The notes under the pieces are model-generated. The model did no database searches, had not been told where the DNA came from, and saw only the letters and a program-made list of their open reading frames with translations. Below, in pieces: positions 21,104 through 29,588 of a DNA stretch of 64,000 nt (position 1 is its first letter; each line of letters opens with the position of its first letter). The stretch comes from Salinarimonas sp. Lineage in GTDB: Bacteria; Pseudomonadota; Alphaproteobacteria; Rhizobiales; Beijerinckiaceae. Where the stretch lies: contig NZ_CP157794.1 of the NCBI RefSeq assembly GCF_040111675.1, positions 4,051,501 to 4,115,500 on the forward strand, written 5' to 3'. A program made the position numbers and the translations under genes.

Positions 21104-21568
21104 TCAGGCGTCGTTCGCCGGCGGGTCCCCCGCGCGCGCCGCCATCGGGGCGAGGCGCGCGTCCGCGAGCGCCTCGGCGAGGCGGGCCGAGTTCTCCTGC
21201 GGCGAGCGCGGCGGGCCGTCGAAGGTGACGGCCTGGATGTCGACGCCGGCGTTGAGCGAGCCGAGGATCAGGTTGAAGAACACCGTCACGTCCCGGTGGG
21301 CGAACTCGAGGTCGAGCGAGACCGCGGGCATGCCGCCCCATTGCAGGTCGACGTCGGCGCGCAGGCCGTAGCGGAGCGTGCCCGGCTTGAAGTGGAGCTC
21401 GGTCGAGGAGGCGACGAGGTCGTCGATGTTGCCGTGCTGCTCGGCATGGACGTAGCGGGCGAGGATGGCGAGATCGACGAGCCGCAACTCCGCAGCGACG
21501 CTCTGGATGGCGTCGGCGAGGATCTTCTCGCGCTCCTTCAGGCTCGGCCTCTTGCCCGATCGTTCCAT
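21104..21568 (-). CDS. Conserved hypothetical protein at the end of the flagellar operon
   Basis: A 154-aa soluble protein I do not recognise. The N-terminal half is helical (LKEREKILADAIQSVAAELRLVDLAILARYVH). The centre looks like beta strands with GTLRYGLRADVDLQWGGMPAVSLDLEF. The C-terminus is Pro/Ala-rich. There is no signal or membrane segment. It starts 15 bp after flhB on the same strand, so it is probably co-transcribed with the flagellar genes. A near-match to a CtrA site (TGAA-N7-TTAAC, 21573-21588) overlaps the flhB stop just before it. Confidence 0.7.
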   Translation of the reverse strand: MERSGKRPSLKEREKILADAIQSVAAELRLVDLAILARYVHAEQHGNIDDLVASSTELHFKPGTLRYGLRADVDLQWGGMPAVSLDLEFAHRDVTVFFNLILGSLNAGVDIQAVTFDGPPRSPQENSARLAEALADARLAPMAARAGDPPANDA

Positions 21569-21583
21569 AGAGTGAACACTTTC

Positions 21584-22657
21584 TTAACCTGCGTTCTCGA
21601 CCTTGCGATAATAGAAGAAGTACAGAAGCTCCGCAACGATGCGGTAGAACTCCGGCGGGATCGGTCGGTCGACTTCCACAGCATCGTACATCGATCTTGC
21701 GAGAGGCTTGTCCTCGATGACGGGAATCCCGTGCGTTGCGGCGATTTCTCGGATCTTCAGCGCAACCAGGTCCTGCCCCTTGGCGACGACCACCGGCGCG
21801 CCGCCCTCCTCGCGGACGTAGCGCAGCGCGATGGCGTAGTGCGTCGGGTTGGCGATGACGATGGTGGCGCGCGGCACGTCGGAGATCATGCGCCGGCGGG
21901 CGCGGTCGCGGGCGAGCGAGCGCATGCGCGCCTTCACCAGCGGATCGCCCTCCGCCTGCTTGTGCTCGTCCTTGAGCTCCTGGCGGGTCATGCGCAGGTC
22001 CTTGCGCCATTTGAAGCGCGAGAAGGCGATGTCGGCGATCACCAGCACGACGATGGCGACGCACACCGCCGAGAGCAGGCGGATGGTGAGCGAGAGGATC
22101 AGCTCGGGGATCTGGGTGGGGTCGGAATACATGGCGTTCACCACCCGCCAGGCGTCGACGCGCGCCAGCAGCGCGACGACGGCGGAGACGACCAGGAACT
22201 TGACCACGGCCTTGGCGAGCTCGACCCAGCCCTGGACGCCGAACATGCGCTTGAATCCCTGGATCGGCGAAAGCCGGGAGAGCTTGGGCGTGATGCGGTC
22301 CTTGGCCATGCGCGGGGCGTTCTGCAGGACGCTCGCCGCGACGCCGTAGACCATGAGGACGCCGACGACGGGCGCGAGGAACGCGCCCATGCCGAGGGCG
22401 AGCACGTGCATGAGCGTGGTTGCGTCGCGCGCGTCATGGAGCGCGATCCCTCCCGGATCGTCGATCAGCCGCCGAAGGAGATCGACGATCTCCGCGGCCC
22501 CGTTGCCGATGACGAAGTGGGCGAGCGTGAGGGAGGCCAGGACGCCGGCGAACACGGAGGCCTCCTTGGAGACCGGCACGTTGCCCTTCTCGATCGCGTC
22601 CTTGATCTTCTTCTCGGTCGCTTCCTCCGTCCTGGATTCCTTGTCCTCCTCGGCCAA
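21584..22657 (-). CDS. flhB: Flagellar export apparatus protein FlhB, TTG start
   Basis: A 357-aa inner-membrane protein that switches export substrate specificity from rod/hook to filament. A charged N-terminus (AEEDKESRTEEATEKKIKDA) precedes four membrane helices, then the cytoplasmic domain with the autocleavage motif Asn270-Pro-Thr-His in VIANPTHYAIALRYV. The start is a TTG with GGGAGG 5 nt upstream; no ATG is available nearby. It is 28 bp after fliG. Confidence 0.95.
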   Translation of the reverse strand: MAEEDKESRTEEATEKKIKDAIEKGNVPVSKEASVFAGVLASLTLAHFVIGNGAAEIVDLLRRLIDDPGGIALHDARDATTLMHVLALGMGAFLAPVVGVLMVYGVAASVLQNAPRMAKDRITPKLSRLSPIQGFKRMFGVQGWVELAKAVVKFLVVSAVVALLARVDAWRVVNAMYSDPTQIPELILSLTIRLLSAVCVAIVVLVIADIAFSRFKWRKDLRMTRQELKDEHKQAEGDPLVKARMRSLARDRARRRMISDVPRATIVIANPTHYAIALRYVREEGGAPVVVAKGQDLVALKIREIAATHGIPVIEDKPLARSMYDAVEVDRPIPPEFYRIVAELLYFFYYRKVENAG

Positions 22658-22685
22658 AGCCGCCTCCCTCTCCGGGCGCCGCCGA

Positions 22686-23723
22686 TCAGCTGAAGAAGGC
22701 GCGCTCCTCCTGGTCCGAGTTGAGCTCGATCTCGCCGCGGCCGGCCATCTCGAGCGCGAGGTCGGTGATGGCGCGGCGCGCCTCGATCACCTCGCGCTGC
22801 GCCACCGGCTCGCCGGAGACGAGCTCGTGCTCGACCATTCGCCGCGCCCGCGAGCCGAGCGAGGAGAGGATCGCGTCGCGGAAGGCCGCGTCCGTACCCT
22901 TGAGCGCGGTGACGATGCGCTCGGTGGGAATCTGGTCGAGGATCGTCATGCGCGCGCGGGGCGCGAGCTTGACCACGTCCTCGAAGGTGAAGAGCAGGCC
23001 CTTGAGCACCTCGGCCGTCTTCGGCCGCGTGTCCGCCAGCGACTGGAGCACGTCCTCCATCTGGTCGCGCTCCATCTTGTTGATGATGTCCGCCATGCGG
23101 GCATGGGTGTCGGTGCCCATGTTGCGGGCGAAGTTGAGCATGAAGTCCTCGTGCAGCGTCTTCTCGACGATGCGCATGGTCTCCTCGACCACGGGCTTGA
23201 AGGACAGCATCCGGCGCATGAGCGAGTTGCGCAGGTCGTGCGGCAGGAGGCCCATGACCTTGGCGGCGCAGGACGGCTTCACCTTGGAGAGGATGAGCGC
23301 GGCCGTCTGCGGGTGCTCCTTCGTCAGGTAGGCGGCGAGGATCTGCTCCGAGACGCCGGAGATCCGCTCCCAGATCGAGCGGTTAGCGTTGCCGAGCACG
23401 TCCGACATGATGTCGGAGACCTGATCCGGCGGCAGCACGCCGGTGAGCAGCCGCTCCACCTCCTGGGCCGTGCCGTAGAGGCTCGTGCCGTTGGAGATGT
23501 CGCCGGCGAACTCCTCGACGAGCGCCTCGAGCTCGGGCGCCGAGATCGGGCCGAGATCGGCGGCGGCGCGGGAGATGGTCTTGAGCTCCTCCGGATCGAA
23601 GCGGGCGAGGAGCCGGCCGGCGGCGTCCTTGCCGAGCGCGAGGAGCAGGGCGGCGACCTTCTCCGCGCCCTGCAGCATGCGCGGGGCGGGCGGGCCGGCG
23701 GCGAGCGTCGCGGGAATGGCCAT
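22686..23723 (-). CDS. fliG: Flagellar motor switch protein FliG
   Basis: A 345-aa cytoplasmic rotor protein. It has the N-terminal FliF-binding region (GAEKVAALLLALGKDAAGRLLARFDPEEL), the armadillo middle domain (EHPQTAALILSKVKPSCAAKVMGLLP, with EHPQ), and the C-terminal torque domain with charged residues (LTFEDVVKLAPRARMTILDQI; LGSRARRMVEHEL). The C-terminus is slightly longer than usual (SDQEERAFFS). It lies in the switch-gene order fliM, fliN, fliG as in other Hyphomicrobiales. Confidence 0.96.
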   Translation of the reverse strand: MAIPATLAAGPPAPRMLQGAEKVAALLLALGKDAAGRLLARFDPEELKTISRAAADLGPISAPELEALVEEFAGDISNGTSLYGTAQEVERLLTGVLPPDQVSDIMSDVLGNANRSIWERISGVSEQILAAYLTKEHPQTAALILSKVKPSCAAKVMGLLPHDLRNSLMRRMLSFKPVVEETMRIVEKTLHEDFMLNFARNMGTDTHARMADIINKMERDQMEDVLQSLADTRPKTAEVLKGLLFTFEDVVKLAPRARMTILDQIPTERIVTALKGTDAAFRDAILSSLGSRARRMVEHELVSGEPVAQREVIEARRAITDLALEMAGRGEIELNSDQEERAFFS

Positions 23724-23737
23724 CGCGCCCTCTCCCC

Positions 23738-24145
23738 TCAGGCGCCGGGCGCGGCCGCGCCGACGATCTCGGTCAGCGAGACGCCGAAGCGGGAATTGTC
23801 GTCCTCGACCACGACCACCTCGCCGCGGGCGACGACGCGGCCGTTGACGACGACGTCGACCGGCTCGCCGACCCGGTGGTCGAGCGGCACGACCGCGCCG
23901 CGGCCGAGCTTCATCAGGTTCGAGACCGGCATCGTCGCCGAGCCGAGCACGACCTGCAGCGAGACGGGGATGCGCATGATGGCGTCGAGATTGCCGCGGG
24001 CGCGGGCCTCGCCGATGGTCTCGGCGGCGGCCTCGGCGGCCGGTCCCTTTCCGAGGGAGACGCCCTCGGTCTCGGCGACGGTCGCGTCGGCGGCGAGGTC
24101 GGCGGCGGCGAACTCGGCGGGCTTGGCGGTCTTCTTGGCGGGCAT
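23738..24145 (-). CDS. fliN: Flagellar motor switch protein FliN
   Basis: A 135-aa C-ring protein. The last 80 residues are the SpoA domain (IPVSLQVVLGSATMPVSNLMKLGRGAVVPLD, split here by hydrophobic patches; GEPVDVVVNGRVVARGEVVVV; FGVSLTEIV). The first 50 residues are an Ala-rich linker (KKTAKPAEFAAADLAADATV). It is 14 bp upstream of fliG. Confidence 0.94.
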   Translation of the reverse strand: MPAKKTAKPAEFAAADLAADATVAETEGVSLGKGPAAEAAAETIGEARARGNLDAIMRIPVSLQVVLGSATMPVSNLMKLGRGAVVPLDHRVGEPVDVVVNGRVVARGEVVVVEDDNSRFGVSLTEIVGAAAPGA

Positions 24146-24180
24146 GGATCTCTCTCCGGATGAACGGGGCGCGCGGGGGC

Positions 24181-24648
24181 TCAGGCCTCGTCGGGCAGGC
24201 GCTTCACGACGACGGTGGGCCAGGAATAGGGCTTGGGCTTCTGGTCGGACCGCGGCTGGAAGGGCGCGGGCGTCGCTTCCGGCGCGGGCGTCTCCTGCGG
24301 CGCGGGCGGGGCGATCGCCTCCGGCGCGGGCTCCTCCGCGGCGGCGGCGGCGCCCGGCGCGGCGGCGCGCACGGTCTCGAGGCGGGAGACGACCTCCCTC
24401 GCCTCCTCGATGCGCTCGCCGAGCGCGGCGAGGACGCGCGCGCCCTCGGTCTGGACGCTGTCGACGGCGCGCTCGACGCCCTCCATCGCGCGCCCGGTCT
24501 GGGCCAGCACCGCGGCGTATTCCTCGTTGTAGGCGCGGAAGCGGCGGAACTCGCGGCGCAGGCCGACGGCGTAGGCGGCGGTGGCGAGGAGCGCCACGAT
24601 CAGCACGAGGTCGAGGAGCGAGACCGCGTCAAGCGGAAGCGAGGTCAT
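24181..24648 (-). CDS. Small membrane-anchored flagellar-cluster protein (DUF6468-like)
   Basis: A 155-aa protein with one N-terminal membrane helix (LLDLVLIVALLATAAYAVGL), a coiled-coil-like helix (RRFRAYNEEYAAVLAQTGRAMEGVERAVDSV, in pieces), then an Ala/Pro/Glu-rich low-complexity tail and a basic end. It resembles DUF6468 proteins found beside fliM in Hyphomicrobiales. Its start lies 20 bp inside the 3' end of fliM, so expression is coupled. The role is unknown; a motor accessory function is inferred from position only. Confidence 0.72.
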   Translation of the reverse strand: MTSLPLDAVSLLDLVLIVALLATAAYAVGLRREFRRFRAYNEEYAAVLAQTGRAMEGVERAVDSVQTEGARVLAALGERIEEAREVVSRLETVRAAAPGAAAAAEEPAPEAIAPPAPQETPAPEATPAPFQPRSDQKPKPYSWPTVVVKRLPDEA

Positions 24649-25573
24649 CGAAGAACTCCTGGTCCTCGTCGATCACGTCCTCGACCTGCAGCATGTAGGC
24701 GCCCTGCGACTGGCCCAGCCGGCAGCGGAAGAGCGCCTGGCCGTTGCACTCGAGCCGCACCAGCGTCGCGGGCGTCGCCTGCAGCTCCAGCACTTGGCCC
24801 ACCTGCAAGCCGGCCACGTCCCCGAGGTCGACGGTGCGCTCCTCGAGCACGGCCTCGAGCGAGACCGTGGTGCGCGAGACCTCCGACTGCATCTGCTTCG
24901 ACCAGCGCGGGTCGGCGGTGGCGACGTCGGTGGAGACCACGTGGGCGAGGCTCTGGCGCATGGGCGAGAGCGCCGACTGGGGGATGATCACGAACATCTC
25001 GCCGCCGCGCCCGAGCGCCTGGATCAGGAGCTTCGCCACGACGGCGAGGTTGTTGCGCCGGCCGATGATGGCGAAGTCCATCCGCGTCTCGATGCGCTCG
25101 AGGTTGAGCGCGGTCTTCGAGATCGGCCCGAAGGCCTGCTGGACCGCCTTCCCGGCCTCGTCGAACAGGGCCTGGGCGACGCGCATCTCGATGTTCGAGA
25201 AGCCGCGCTCGTCGTCCACCGGCGGCTCGGAGCCGTCGGAGCCGAACAGGACCTCGATCATGGTGAAGACGAAGTCCCGGTCGAAGCCCACCAGGATGCG
25301 CGTGTCCCAGTCGACCGCGTGGTACATGGCGGCGATGGCGTTGGCGTCGTAGTCCTCGAGGATGTCGCCGATGCGCCCGCTCTCGATGTTCGACACCGAG
25401 AAGTAGGAGGGCGAGGCCGACATGTGACGCAGGCCGTCGGCGCAGTAGGTGGCCACGCGATCGAAGATCACGTTGAGCATCGGCAGCCGGTCGAGGGTGA
25501 TCCCGGCGGCGTCCAGCAGGCGGTCGGACACGCCGCCCGCAGCGGCGGCGGTCTGGAAGCTCTCGATGTTCAT
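24629..25573 (-). CDS. fliM: Flagellar motor switch protein FliM
   Basis: A 314-aa C-ring protein. The middle CheC-like domain (LPMLNVIFDRVATYCADGLRHMS; VGFDRDFVFTMIEVLFGSDG) is followed by the C-terminal SpoA domain (VGQVLELQATPATLVRLECNGQALFRCRLGQSQG in segments). The extreme N-terminus lacks an obvious CheY-binding LSQxEID motif, as in some alphaproteobacteria. Its ATG overlaps the motA stop by one base (TGATG). Confidence 0.94.
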   Translation of the reverse strand: MNIESFQTAAAAGGVSDRLLDAAGITLDRLPMLNVIFDRVATYCADGLRHMSASPSYFSVSNIESGRIGDILEDYDANAIAAMYHAVDWDTRILVGFDRDFVFTMIEVLFGSDGSEPPVDDERGFSNIEMRVAQALFDEAGKAVQQAFGPISKTALNLERIETRMDFAIIGRRNNLAVVAKLLIQALGRGGEMFVIIPQSALSPMRQSLAHVVSTDVATADPRWSKQMQSEVSRTTVSLEAVLEERTVDLGDVAGLQVGQVLELQATPATLVRLECNGQALFRCRLGQSQGAYMLQVEDVIDEDQEFFDDLASA

Positions 25574-26475
25574 CAGGCCGCTCCCTGCAGGGCCGCGCGA
25601 TCGTTGGCGGGCGCGCCGCGGCTCGACTGCGAGATCGTCTCGCTCTCGACCTCGTCGATGGAGGGCCGGTCGGCGGCGGCGATGGCCTTGCGGCCGTGCT
25701 CCACGGCGATCTGCGGCAGCGCGCCGTTCATGAAGGCGAGCAGCGTCTGCTTGGCGATGGTGTAGAGGCGCATCTGATGCTCGCGGGTGTACTTGATCTT
25801 GAGGGCGAGCGGGCCGACGAGGGCGTAGCTCATGAAGATGCCGGCGAAGGTGCCCACCAGGGCCGCGCCGATCAGCGAGCCGAGCAGCTGCGGCGACTGG
25901 TCGAGGGCGCCCATCGCCTTGATCACGCCGAGCACGGCGGCGACGATGCCGAGCGCCGGCAGCGCCTCGGCGATCGTCATCAGGGCGAAGTAGGGTTTCA
26001 GCTTCTCGCGCCGGTGGGTCTGGATCTCCTCGTCCATCAGCGCCTCGATCTCGTGCGGACGGGCGTTGCCGATGATCATCAGCCGCACGTAGTCGCACAC
26101 GAAGCTCGTCAGCTCGGGCCGGGCGAGGACGCGCGAGAAGCGCTTGAAGATCTCGCTCTCCTGCGGGTCGTCGATATGCGGCTCCACCTCGTTGCGGCCC
26201 TTGGCGCGGATCTCGCGCATGAGCAGGTAGAGGAGGCCCAGCAGGTCGAGATAGTCGCGGGCCTTCGGCACCTGGCCCACCATCGCCTCCACCGAGGCGC
26301 GGCCGGTGTCGCGCACGGTCTTGAGGGAATTGGCGATGATGAAGGTGCCCACCGCGGTGCCGCCGATGATGACGAACTCCCACGGCTGCCAGATGACCGG
26401 GATGTGCCCGCCCATGGCGGCGAAGCCGCCGAGCAGCGAGGCCATCGTGATCACGATGCCGATGAAGACAGCCAA
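25573..26475 (-). CDS. motA: Flagellar motor stator protein MotA, TTG start
   Basis: A 300-aa proton-channel stator subunit with four membrane helices ([78 protein letters not shown]). The large cytoplasmic loop has the charged torque segment ([22 protein letters not shown]). The TTG at 26475 (MAVFIGIVI) is chosen because GGGGAGG precedes it by 8 nt and the N-terminus matches the family. It is the first gene of the leftward operon; motB is not in the window. Confidence 0.92.
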
Positions 26476-26548
26476 GGCCGATGCCTCCCCTTTGCCGGTG
26501 CGCGTGCCATGGGGGAGGTGTAGGCGGGGAAGCTTGTGCGAAGGTGGT

Positions 26549-26564
26549 GGGGGGCGGGCCCCCC
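26549..26564. promoter_or_regulatory. G/C hairpin between divergent motA and leuD
   Basis: GGGGGGCGGGCCCCCC can form six or seven consecutive G-C pairs. It sits roughly mid-way in the 208-bp gap between the divergent motA and leuD starts. It may be a transcript-end or leader structure for either gene. No clear promoter hexamers were found around it. Confidence 0.4.
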
Positions 26565-26683
26565 AGCGGGCGGCCGGCATCGCCGCAGGCGCGCCGCATC
26601 GCGGGGCGAGGCTTTCCCTTCCCGCGCGCGCCTGCTAGAGAACGGTTCCGATCGAGCCCTCGCGACAACGAAGCACGAAGCCC

Positions 26684-27946: not shown

Positions 27947-29143
27947 ATGCCGCAAGACACGACCCACACCGACGGCTGGGCCGAGCCGACGCCGACCGCC
28001 GTCCTCGTGCTCGAGGACGGGACCGTCCTCCAGGGCTACGGCATCGGCGCCGTGGGCGAGGCGGCCGGCGAGGTCTGCTTCAACACGGCGATGACGGGAT
28101 ACCAGGAGATCCTGACCGACCCTTCCTATGCCGGGCAGATCATCACCTTCACCTTCCCGCATATCGGGAACGTCGGCGTCAACGACGAGGACGTCGAGAC
28201 GGTGAACGCCGCCGCCGCTTCCGGCGTGCGCGGCGTCGTCATGGCCGCGCCGATCACAGACCCGTCGAGCTGGCGCGCGAGCCGCGACCTCGACGCCTGG
28301 CTGAAGGCGCGCGGCATCGCCGGCATCACCGGGGTCGACACCCGCGCCCTGACCGCGCTGATCCGCGATCACGGCATGCCCAACGCGATCATCGTCCACG
28401 ACCCGAACGGCGCGTTCGACCTCGAGGACCTGAAGGCGCGCGCGAAGCACCTCCCCTCCATGGCGGGCCTCGACCTCGTGCCGCTGGTCGCGGCGACGCA
28501 GCGCTTCGAATGGGACGAGACGCCCTGGGAGCTCGGCCGCGGCTACGGCCGGCGCGCCGAGGCGACGCATCACGTGGTCGCCATCGATTTCGGCGTGAAG
28601 CGCAACATCCTGCGGCTCCTCGCCAATGCCGGCTGCCGCGTCACCGTGGTGCCGCCGACCGCGACCGTCGAGGAGATCCTCGCGCTCGAGCCCGACGGCG
28701 TGTTCCTCTCGAACGGCCCCGGCGATCCGGCGGCGACGGGCGAATACGCCGTGCCGACGATCCGCGCGATCCTCGAGCGGAAGGTGCCGACCTTCGGCAT
28801 CTGCCTCGGCCACCAGATGCTCGGCCTCGCCATCGGCGCCAAGACCAAGAAGATGATGCAGGGCCATCACGGCGCCAATCATCCGGTCAAGGACAAGACC
28901 ACAGGCAAGGTCGAGATCGTCTCGATGAACCACGGCTTCGCGGTCGACACCGACACGCTGCCGGCCTCCGCGCAGGAGACGCACGTCTCCCTGTTCGACG
29001 GCTCGAATTGCGGCATCGCGCTCGCCGACGCGCCGGCCTTCTCGGTGCAGTACCACCCGGAGGCCTCGCCCGGCCCGCGCGACAGCCACTATCTTTTCGA
29101 CAGGTTCGTGTCGCTGATGGGCACGAAGGAGCCGGCCGCCTGA
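27947..29143 (+). CDS. carA: Carbamoyl-phosphate synthase small (glutaminase) subunit
   Basis: A 398-aa subunit hydrolysing glutamine to feed ammonia to CarB for arginine and pyrimidine synthesis. The N-terminal CarA domain (LVLEDGTVLQGYGIG; CFNTAMTGYQEILTDPSYAGQI) is followed by a class I glutamine amidotransferase domain with nucleophile Cys in FGICLGHQMLG and the His-Glu pair in SVQYHPEASPGP. Normal length. carB is not in the window. The divergent yqeY-like neighbour is conserved in the class. Confidence 0.98.
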   Translation: MPQDTTHTDGWAEPTPTAVLVLEDGTVLQGYGIGAVGEAAGEVCFNTAMTGYQEILTDPSYAGQIITFTFPHIGNVGVNDEDVETVNAAAASGVRGVVMAAPITDPSSWRASRDLDAWLKARGIAGITGVDTRALTALIRDHGMPNAIIVHDPNGAFDLEDLKARAKHLPSMAGLDLVPLVAATQRFEWDETPWELGRGYGRRAEATHHVVAIDFGVKRNILRLLANAGCRVTVVPPTATVEEILALEPDGVFLSNGPGDPAATGEYAVPTIRAILERKVPTFGICLGHQMLGLAIGAKTKKMMQGHHGANHPVKDKTTGKVEIVSMNHGFAVDTDTLPASAQETHVSLFDGSNCGIALADAPAFSVQYHPEASPGPRDSHYLFDRFVSLMGTKEPAA

Positions 29144-29154
29144 ATTTCGCCGCG

Positions 29155-29170
29155 TTAAACCTTTGTTAAC
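29155..29170 (+). promoter_or_regulatory. CtrA box upstream of the cytochrome c gene
   Basis: TTAA-ACCTTTG-TTAAC matches the full CtrA consensus TTAA-N7-TTAAC exactly, in DNA where A/T-rich tetramers are rare. It lies 12 bp after the carA stop and 62 bp before the cytochrome c ATG, the spacing expected for a site near the -35 region. CtrA is the cell-cycle master regulator of alphaproteobacteria. Confidence 0.65.
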
Positions 29171-29231
29171 CATGACGGACCACGGTTCGAGCAAGCGCCC
29201 CCGCGGGGGCGCGGCACTCGGGAGATTCGTC

Positions 29232-29588
29232 ATGCGCACCGGCCCCCTGATCCGAGCCATGCTGCTCGTCGCCATCGGCGGGACCATGGTCGTGACCTTC
29301 GCCCGCGCCCAGGGCGACGCGCGCGACCTCGCCCGCGGCGAGCACATCCTGCGCGAGAACTGCGCCGAGTGCCACGCGATCGGGCTCACCGACGAGAGCC
29401 CCTACGCGCCCGCCCCTGCCTTCCGCACGCTGTCCGAGAACTATCCCGTCCGGATGCTGGAGGAGGCGCTCGGCGAGGGCATTCTCGTCGCGCACGAGGG
29501 CGTGCGCCAGATGCCCGAGCTCTCCTTCTCCCCCGAGGACGTCGGCGACATCGTCGCCTACCTGAAATCGATCCAGCCGGACGGGTGA
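29232..29588 (+). CDS. Small secreted c-type cytochrome
   Basis: A 118-aa monohaem cytochrome c. A signal peptide (IRAMLLVAIGGTMVVTFARAQ) is followed by the haem site CAECH (Cys44 to His48). The distal Met is probably in VRQMPELSFSPEDVGDI. The ATG at 29232 follows GGAG by 7 nt; earlier in-frame starts (29163, 29172) lie inside or beside the CtrA box and would add a tail before the signal peptide. It would act in the periplasm as an electron carrier; the partner is unknown. Confidence 0.87.
   Translation: MRTGPLIRAMLLVAIGGTMVVTFARAQGDARDLARGEHILRENCAECHAIGLTDESPYAPAPAFRTLSENYPVRMLEEALGEGILVAHEGVRQMPELSFSPEDVGDIVAYLKSIQPDG

Follow-up and report, generated by a model that had tools for sequence, protein, structure and literature searches.

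The 88-bp gap between carA and a small cytochrome c gene of Salinarimonas sp. appears, with a probability of roughly 0.7, to be a CtrA-activated promoter, inherited from a gene designated here as mem and now driving the cytochrome. This reading takes as its observed basis the sequence of the gap, its conservation, the order of the genes and the presence of CtrA.

The CtrA box and its surroundings

The box (TTAA-ACCTTTG-TTAAC, i.e. TTAAACCTTTGTTAAC) occupies positions 29155-29170 on the plus strand of the window—the whole 64-kb stretch of DNA analysed—and fits TTAA-N7-TTAAC with zero mismatches; it is palindromic, reading GTTAA-N7-TTAAC on either strand, so that the minus strand matches too. 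What an earlier, sequence-only reading had described as a perfect CtrA box in very GC-rich DNA is confirmed, the window having 72% GC and five TTAA in total, two of which form the box halves, 11 bp apart, with the exact pattern found at this single place in the window and in none of 100 dinucleotide shuffles. The box begins 11 bp after the carA stop and ends 61 bp before the ATG of the cytochrome c gene (29232), and its placement at promoter distance from a monohaem cytochrome, claimed in the same reading, holds as well.

The conserved upstream neighbour is the open reading frame of carA (27947-29143, plus strand), the gene for the small chain of carbamoyl-phosphate synthase, named by eye from the GICLGHQ glutaminase motif. 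The downstream gene (29232-29588, plus strand) encodes a monohaem c-type cytochrome of 118 amino acids, for which orthologues were found; its N terminus resembles, by eye, a signal peptide, and its haem motif CAECH is encoded at 29361-29375. The ATG at 29232, preceded by an RBS-like GGGAGA at 29220-29225 (plus strand), of which GGAGA is retained in both congeners, was preferred over the in-frame ATG at 29172 because the frame starting at the latter is broken in S. ramus. The GATTC (a GANTC site) at 29224-29228 was rejected as a conserved element, being present in the studied genome and S. rosea and absent from S. ramus.

As to the −10 element, a weak candidate hexamer, CACGGT, lies at 29181-29186 (plus strand), 10 nt 3' of TTAAC. 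It is located at the right spacing but is not TANNNT; both CACGGT and the CACCGT of the two congeners possess the A and the final T of the −10 pattern and lack its first T. Outside the genus, CACGGT is seen in two of the three genomes of the genus g34—at a spacing equal to that in the studied genome—and missing from the third (g34_G100), while one of three genomes of the genus g41 has GACGGT.

The box is perfect in 3/3 Salinarimonas, i.e. the studied genome, S. rosea and S. ramus, both congeners having TTAAACATACGTTAAC. All nine bases of the half-sites and four of the seven spacer bases are identical in the three species, and the conservation extends beyond the box, the flanking bases being largely kept too (11/12 before the box, 15/20 after it and 23/41 nearest the ATG). 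Absence of the box upstream of close orthologues, named beforehand as the finding that would speak against it, was not observed in this genus; the expected conservation does not, however, reach the 16 distant orthologues situated directly after carA, none of which is preceded by a box with up to one mismatch.

It should be mentioned that the window also contains, at 21104-26580 of the minus strand, a flagellar cluster with FlhB-, FliM- and MotA-like open reading frames (recognized by eye). A CtrA site with one mismatch at 21572-21588 lies there at the end of the FlhB frame and the start of the next gene; it is probably not a promoter.

CtrA and its motif in the genome and the family

CtrA is encoded in all three Salinarimonas; that of the studied genome scores 425.2 bits, the cut-off of the NCBIfam CtrA equivalog NF045991 being 350. 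The genome (a single contig of 5.35 Mb) contains 19 hits to TTAA-N7-TTAAC, corresponding to 15 distinct places, versus six hits in four places for the reversed control pattern; the respective numbers of hits are 19 and 1 in S. rosea and 18 and 5 in S. ramus. By the reversed control, a lone exact match could thus be due to chance in about one case in four, and the 16 bases of one of the four control places occur identically at a control place in S. ramus; the cytochrome box stands above this level because it is conserved.

Eight of the 15 places adjoin flagellar, chemotaxis, division or histidine-kinase genes, their neighbours being an MCP, an MCP/PilZ protein, FliG, a protein of the FlgE/F/G family, MinC, FtsK and two PAS histidine kinases. 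One further place lies between the genes for uroporphyrinogen decarboxylase and a Kinase-PPPase, and at the remaining six the neighbours are not classical CtrA targets, have no Pfam hit or are the cytochrome itself: one of the six is flanked by genes for proteins that look FlgB-like and FliO-like by eye, neither with a Pfam hit, and the others lie near genes for a protein of beta-barrel type, one with a metallo-beta-lactamase fold and an alcohol dehydrogenase, near an unassigned open reading frame and near the cytochrome. The gene starts around these places are rough, script-called ones, the boxes of MinC and one histidine kinase falling inside a called open reading frame. Matched by locus rather than by exact position, 11 of the 15 have a counterpart in each of the two congeners, S. 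rosea alone shares one more, and three are without a counterpart in either.

Across the family, the box was followed upstream of ftsK at the best-matching 30 loci from 112 genomes with a match, a choice that favours near relatives and whose genomes are not matched one to one with those of the cytochrome set. It is exact at 26 of these loci, has one mismatch at three and two mismatches at one, and lies 62-100 bp upstream of the gene; TANNNT follows TTAAC at all 30, after 10 bases at 20 loci and after 11 bases at 10. Since the motif marks classical targets, recurs in the congeners and precedes ftsK across the family, its presence in this family points quite well to a CtrA promoter, albeit without proving one at any single site.

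Three further observations concern individual boxes. An exact box is found between the genes for uroporphyrinogen decarboxylase and a Kinase-PPPase (G000:C1:5165041) and in both congeners too; these surroundings resemble those of the Caulobacter origin, and by this analogy the box possibly lies near the chromosome origin. At a rod-protein-like gene, the box is followed just 3' by the inverted repeat GGCAA-T/A-TTTTGCC in all three Salinarimonas, which may represent the site of a second flagellar regulator. In the congeners, finally, a box without mismatch occurs about 24-26 kb from the cytochrome (S. rosea C18:61949, S. ramus C4:333972); behind it stands CCTAGGCT or CCTACCGT, a good −10, and its locus matches no box locus of the studied genome.

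The mem gene and the box across genera

The cytochrome homologues scanned for the box cover 50 loci from 65 genomes with a match, weaker ones being excluded, and for 20 of the 50 the upstream sequence spans only about 700-860 bp. A scan of 300 bp gave a box with up to one mismatch at none of 47 non-Salinarimonas loci and made it seem genus-specific, a view abandoned when the whole gap was scanned and the box of g34 found: the short scan was misleading because that box lies 453-482 bp upstream of the cytochrome, behind an extra gene. In g34, the nearest genus by FtsK, the order is carA-box-mem-cytochrome in 3/3 genomes, the box being exact and the mem product—about 112-124 residues long—having a membrane-bound look by eye.

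The downstream side of carA was viewed over 51 loci, a non-random choice: 30 from genomes chosen by FtsK closeness or from the nearest genera, three from Salinarimonas and 18 chosen by the carA neighbour, which is the cytochrome in 16 and mem in two; each scan ended where the following cytochrome or mem gene starts or, if neither was found, after about 420 bp. The mem gene is present at 15 loci across five genera (g34 3, g32 3, g36 2, g9 4 and g41 3), and a box with up to one mismatch precedes it at 10 of them, the one in g9_G083 reading on the opposite strand only, while five have no good box. The three Salinarimonas loci have the box and no mem, so that a box downstream of carA is confined to six genera among the 51 loci. 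In the stretch scanned at the 33 other loci, there is neither mem nor a box with up to one mismatch, including the 16 at which the cytochrome follows carA directly. The difference between 10/15 and 0/33 gives a Fisher p of 4.6e-7 with kinship ignored, and mononucleotide shuffles predict 0.12 boxes among 13 mem gaps.

A search of 119 genomes of the family with one mem sequence gave matches in 16 at E 0.01, that in G014 (E 0.0083) being doubtful; a profile built from 10 of the 12 mem sequences (alignment A1) was run against 297 genomes of the order and, at E 1e-5, matched five, each of them belonging to the genus g9. Neither search revealed a credible mem in any of the three Salinarimonas; a relocated copy in the studied genome was discounted, the sole profile hit (E 0.035) being antisense to an SDR-like frame. 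In neither Pfam nor NCBIfam did mem reach the cut-off of any family. Judged by the box before it, mem is a probable CtrA target, representing a small conserved family of membrane-protein-like products encoded after carA.

Proposed evolutionary history of the promoter

The distribution described above suggests that the box existed before it became linked to the cytochrome and that it first served mem, since lost in Salinarimonas. It probably arrived with mem, because it accompanies mem and the bare carA-cytochrome order is box-less. In the midpoint-rooted carA tree, the mem-bearing loci form a weakly supported group (76/62), within which Salinarimonas is nested, again weakly (81/53). The box and mem would have been inserted once between carA and the cytochrome, the latter would subsequently have been lost from its place beside carA in g32, g36, g9 and g41, and the loss of mem in Salinarimonas would have passed the promoter on to the cytochrome. 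A deletion of mem with retention of the promoter by the cytochrome is thus the most likely course; the direction of the mem loss is itself inferred, and the order of gain and loss follows parsimony, given the weak support and midpoint root of the carA tree. An independent gain is another possible history.

The fuller proposal—a promoter handed to the next gene by a deletion, the cytochrome as a direct, single-gene target of CtrA and electron transfer thereby tied to division—is put forward tentatively, at somewhat less than even odds. Photosynthetic reaction-centre proteins are encoded in all three Salinarimonas, in line with the description of S. chemoclinalis as an aerobic anoxygenic phototroph (PMC11596632).

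Proposed regulation and alternative explanations

In the favoured scheme, CtrA~P would bind the full site and aid RNA polymerase at the weak −10 hexamer ten bases downstream, transcription starting near 29193 with a leader of about 39 nt; the same promoter would first have driven mem and, in g34, precedes both mem and the cytochrome. The cytochrome would be made while CtrA is active, which in Caulobacter is the predivisional cell. CtrA binding, activation rather than repression and cell-cycle timing are all what we infer, the timing from Caulobacter only, where a full site begins, at its 5' end, near −35 and serves as an activating site in predivisional cells (PMC4287350). The hexamer, without the first T of the TANNNT seen at all 30 FtsK loci, speaks against activation by CtrA, and transcripts running on from carA could supply the cytochrome as well. 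With CtrA encoded, the motif at classical targets and the box in 3/3 Salinarimonas and 3/3 g34 genomes, the CtrA control put forward in the sequence-only reading gains support, with the amendment that the box appears to have belonged originally to a small gene now missing here. The gap is very probably a CtrA promoter and, as such, would add a further target to a known regulator, not a new system; its history is more interesting than the target itself.

The box might, nevertheless, be a leftover of the lost mem, still bound by CtrA but of little effect on the cytochrome, which would be transcribed mainly by carA read-through or from another promoter. Across genera the box indeed tracks mem and not the cytochrome, the carA stop is a mere 11 bp away and the −10 is weak; we consider this rather unlikely all the same, the half-sites having stayed intact in all three Salinarimonas while spacer and leader drift, and the g34 box being followed by the cytochrome, too, as its second gene. 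Repression, with the site blocking the polymerase and the cytochrome made at low CtrA, could be invoked from Dinoroseobacter-type evidence, i.e. the rise of cytochrome genes in the ctrA, cckA and chpT mutants of D. shibae (PMC4046655), whose authors caution that the differences seen in stationary phase may be indirect. Repressor sites of Caulobacter are mostly half-sites over the −10, a full site at −14 of ctrA P3, read as repressing, being an exception (PMC4287350); here, a full site is followed 10 nt downstream by a −10-like hexamer, as at ftsK, and repression is improbable.

Very improbable, too, is that the palindrome GTTAA-N7-TTAAC is read by a different regulator or is a chance match. 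The reversed control does give hits in all three genomes (6, 1 and 5), and the Dnr/Fnr site of D. shibae has the TTAAC half in common with the box; its spacer is nonetheless of four bases versus seven here (PMC7232146), a spacing that rules out an Fnr-type palindrome, and the box is conserved in all three Salinarimonas and after carA in all three g34 genomes. The CtrA-activated promoter remains the preferred reading.

Comparison with known systems

In Caulobacter, respiratory genes vary in the course of the cell cycle. Among the titles and abstracts listed from the open PMC subset, none names a site through which CtrA directly controls a cytochrome c gene. The supposition that cell-cycle control of an electron carrier would be new is to be read with caution, the cytochrome genes of D. 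shibae having already been reported higher in ctrA, cckA and chpT mutants—in the text accessible, not as direct targets (PMC4046655). If the proposed reading is true, an electron carrier would be tied directly to a cell-cycle regulator, the previous reports, as far as available, concerning possibly indirect changes in expression; mem after carA in five genera would be a likely CtrA target; and the locus would offer a clean case of CtrA regulon turnover, in which the site stays and the gene behind it changes.

The protein itself agrees with monohaem c-type cytochromes in its one CXXCH motif (CAECH) and in exceeding the cut-offs of both Pfam profiles, Cytochrom_C (32.2 bits, cut-off 21.3) and Cytochrome_CBB3 (30.9 bits, cut-off 27); it differs from them in that it found no relative in the PDB at E 0.001 and no NCBIfam model above its own cut-off.

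As to the promoter, the ChIP consensus reported for Hyphomonas CtrA is the same TTAA-N7-TTAAC (PMC7200025), and the gap resembles the CtrA-activated promoters of Caulobacter (PMC4287350) and Hyphomonas (PMC7200025), to the extent of the texts available, in its exact motif and spacing, its promoter distance, the −10-like hexamer 10 nt further on and the presence of an encoded CtrA. It is unlike them in its predicted target, since small cytochromes c do not appear among the target categories in the accessible parts of these two papers. Compared with the ftsK promoter of the same family, the putative −10 of the cytochrome is poorer, and the box downstream of carA is limited to six genera, whereas that of ftsK occurs with up to one mismatch at 29 of the best-matching 30 loci; the two share, however, the same architecture, i.e. 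a box upstream of the gene (62-100 bp at ftsK) followed by a hexamer at 10-11 nt.
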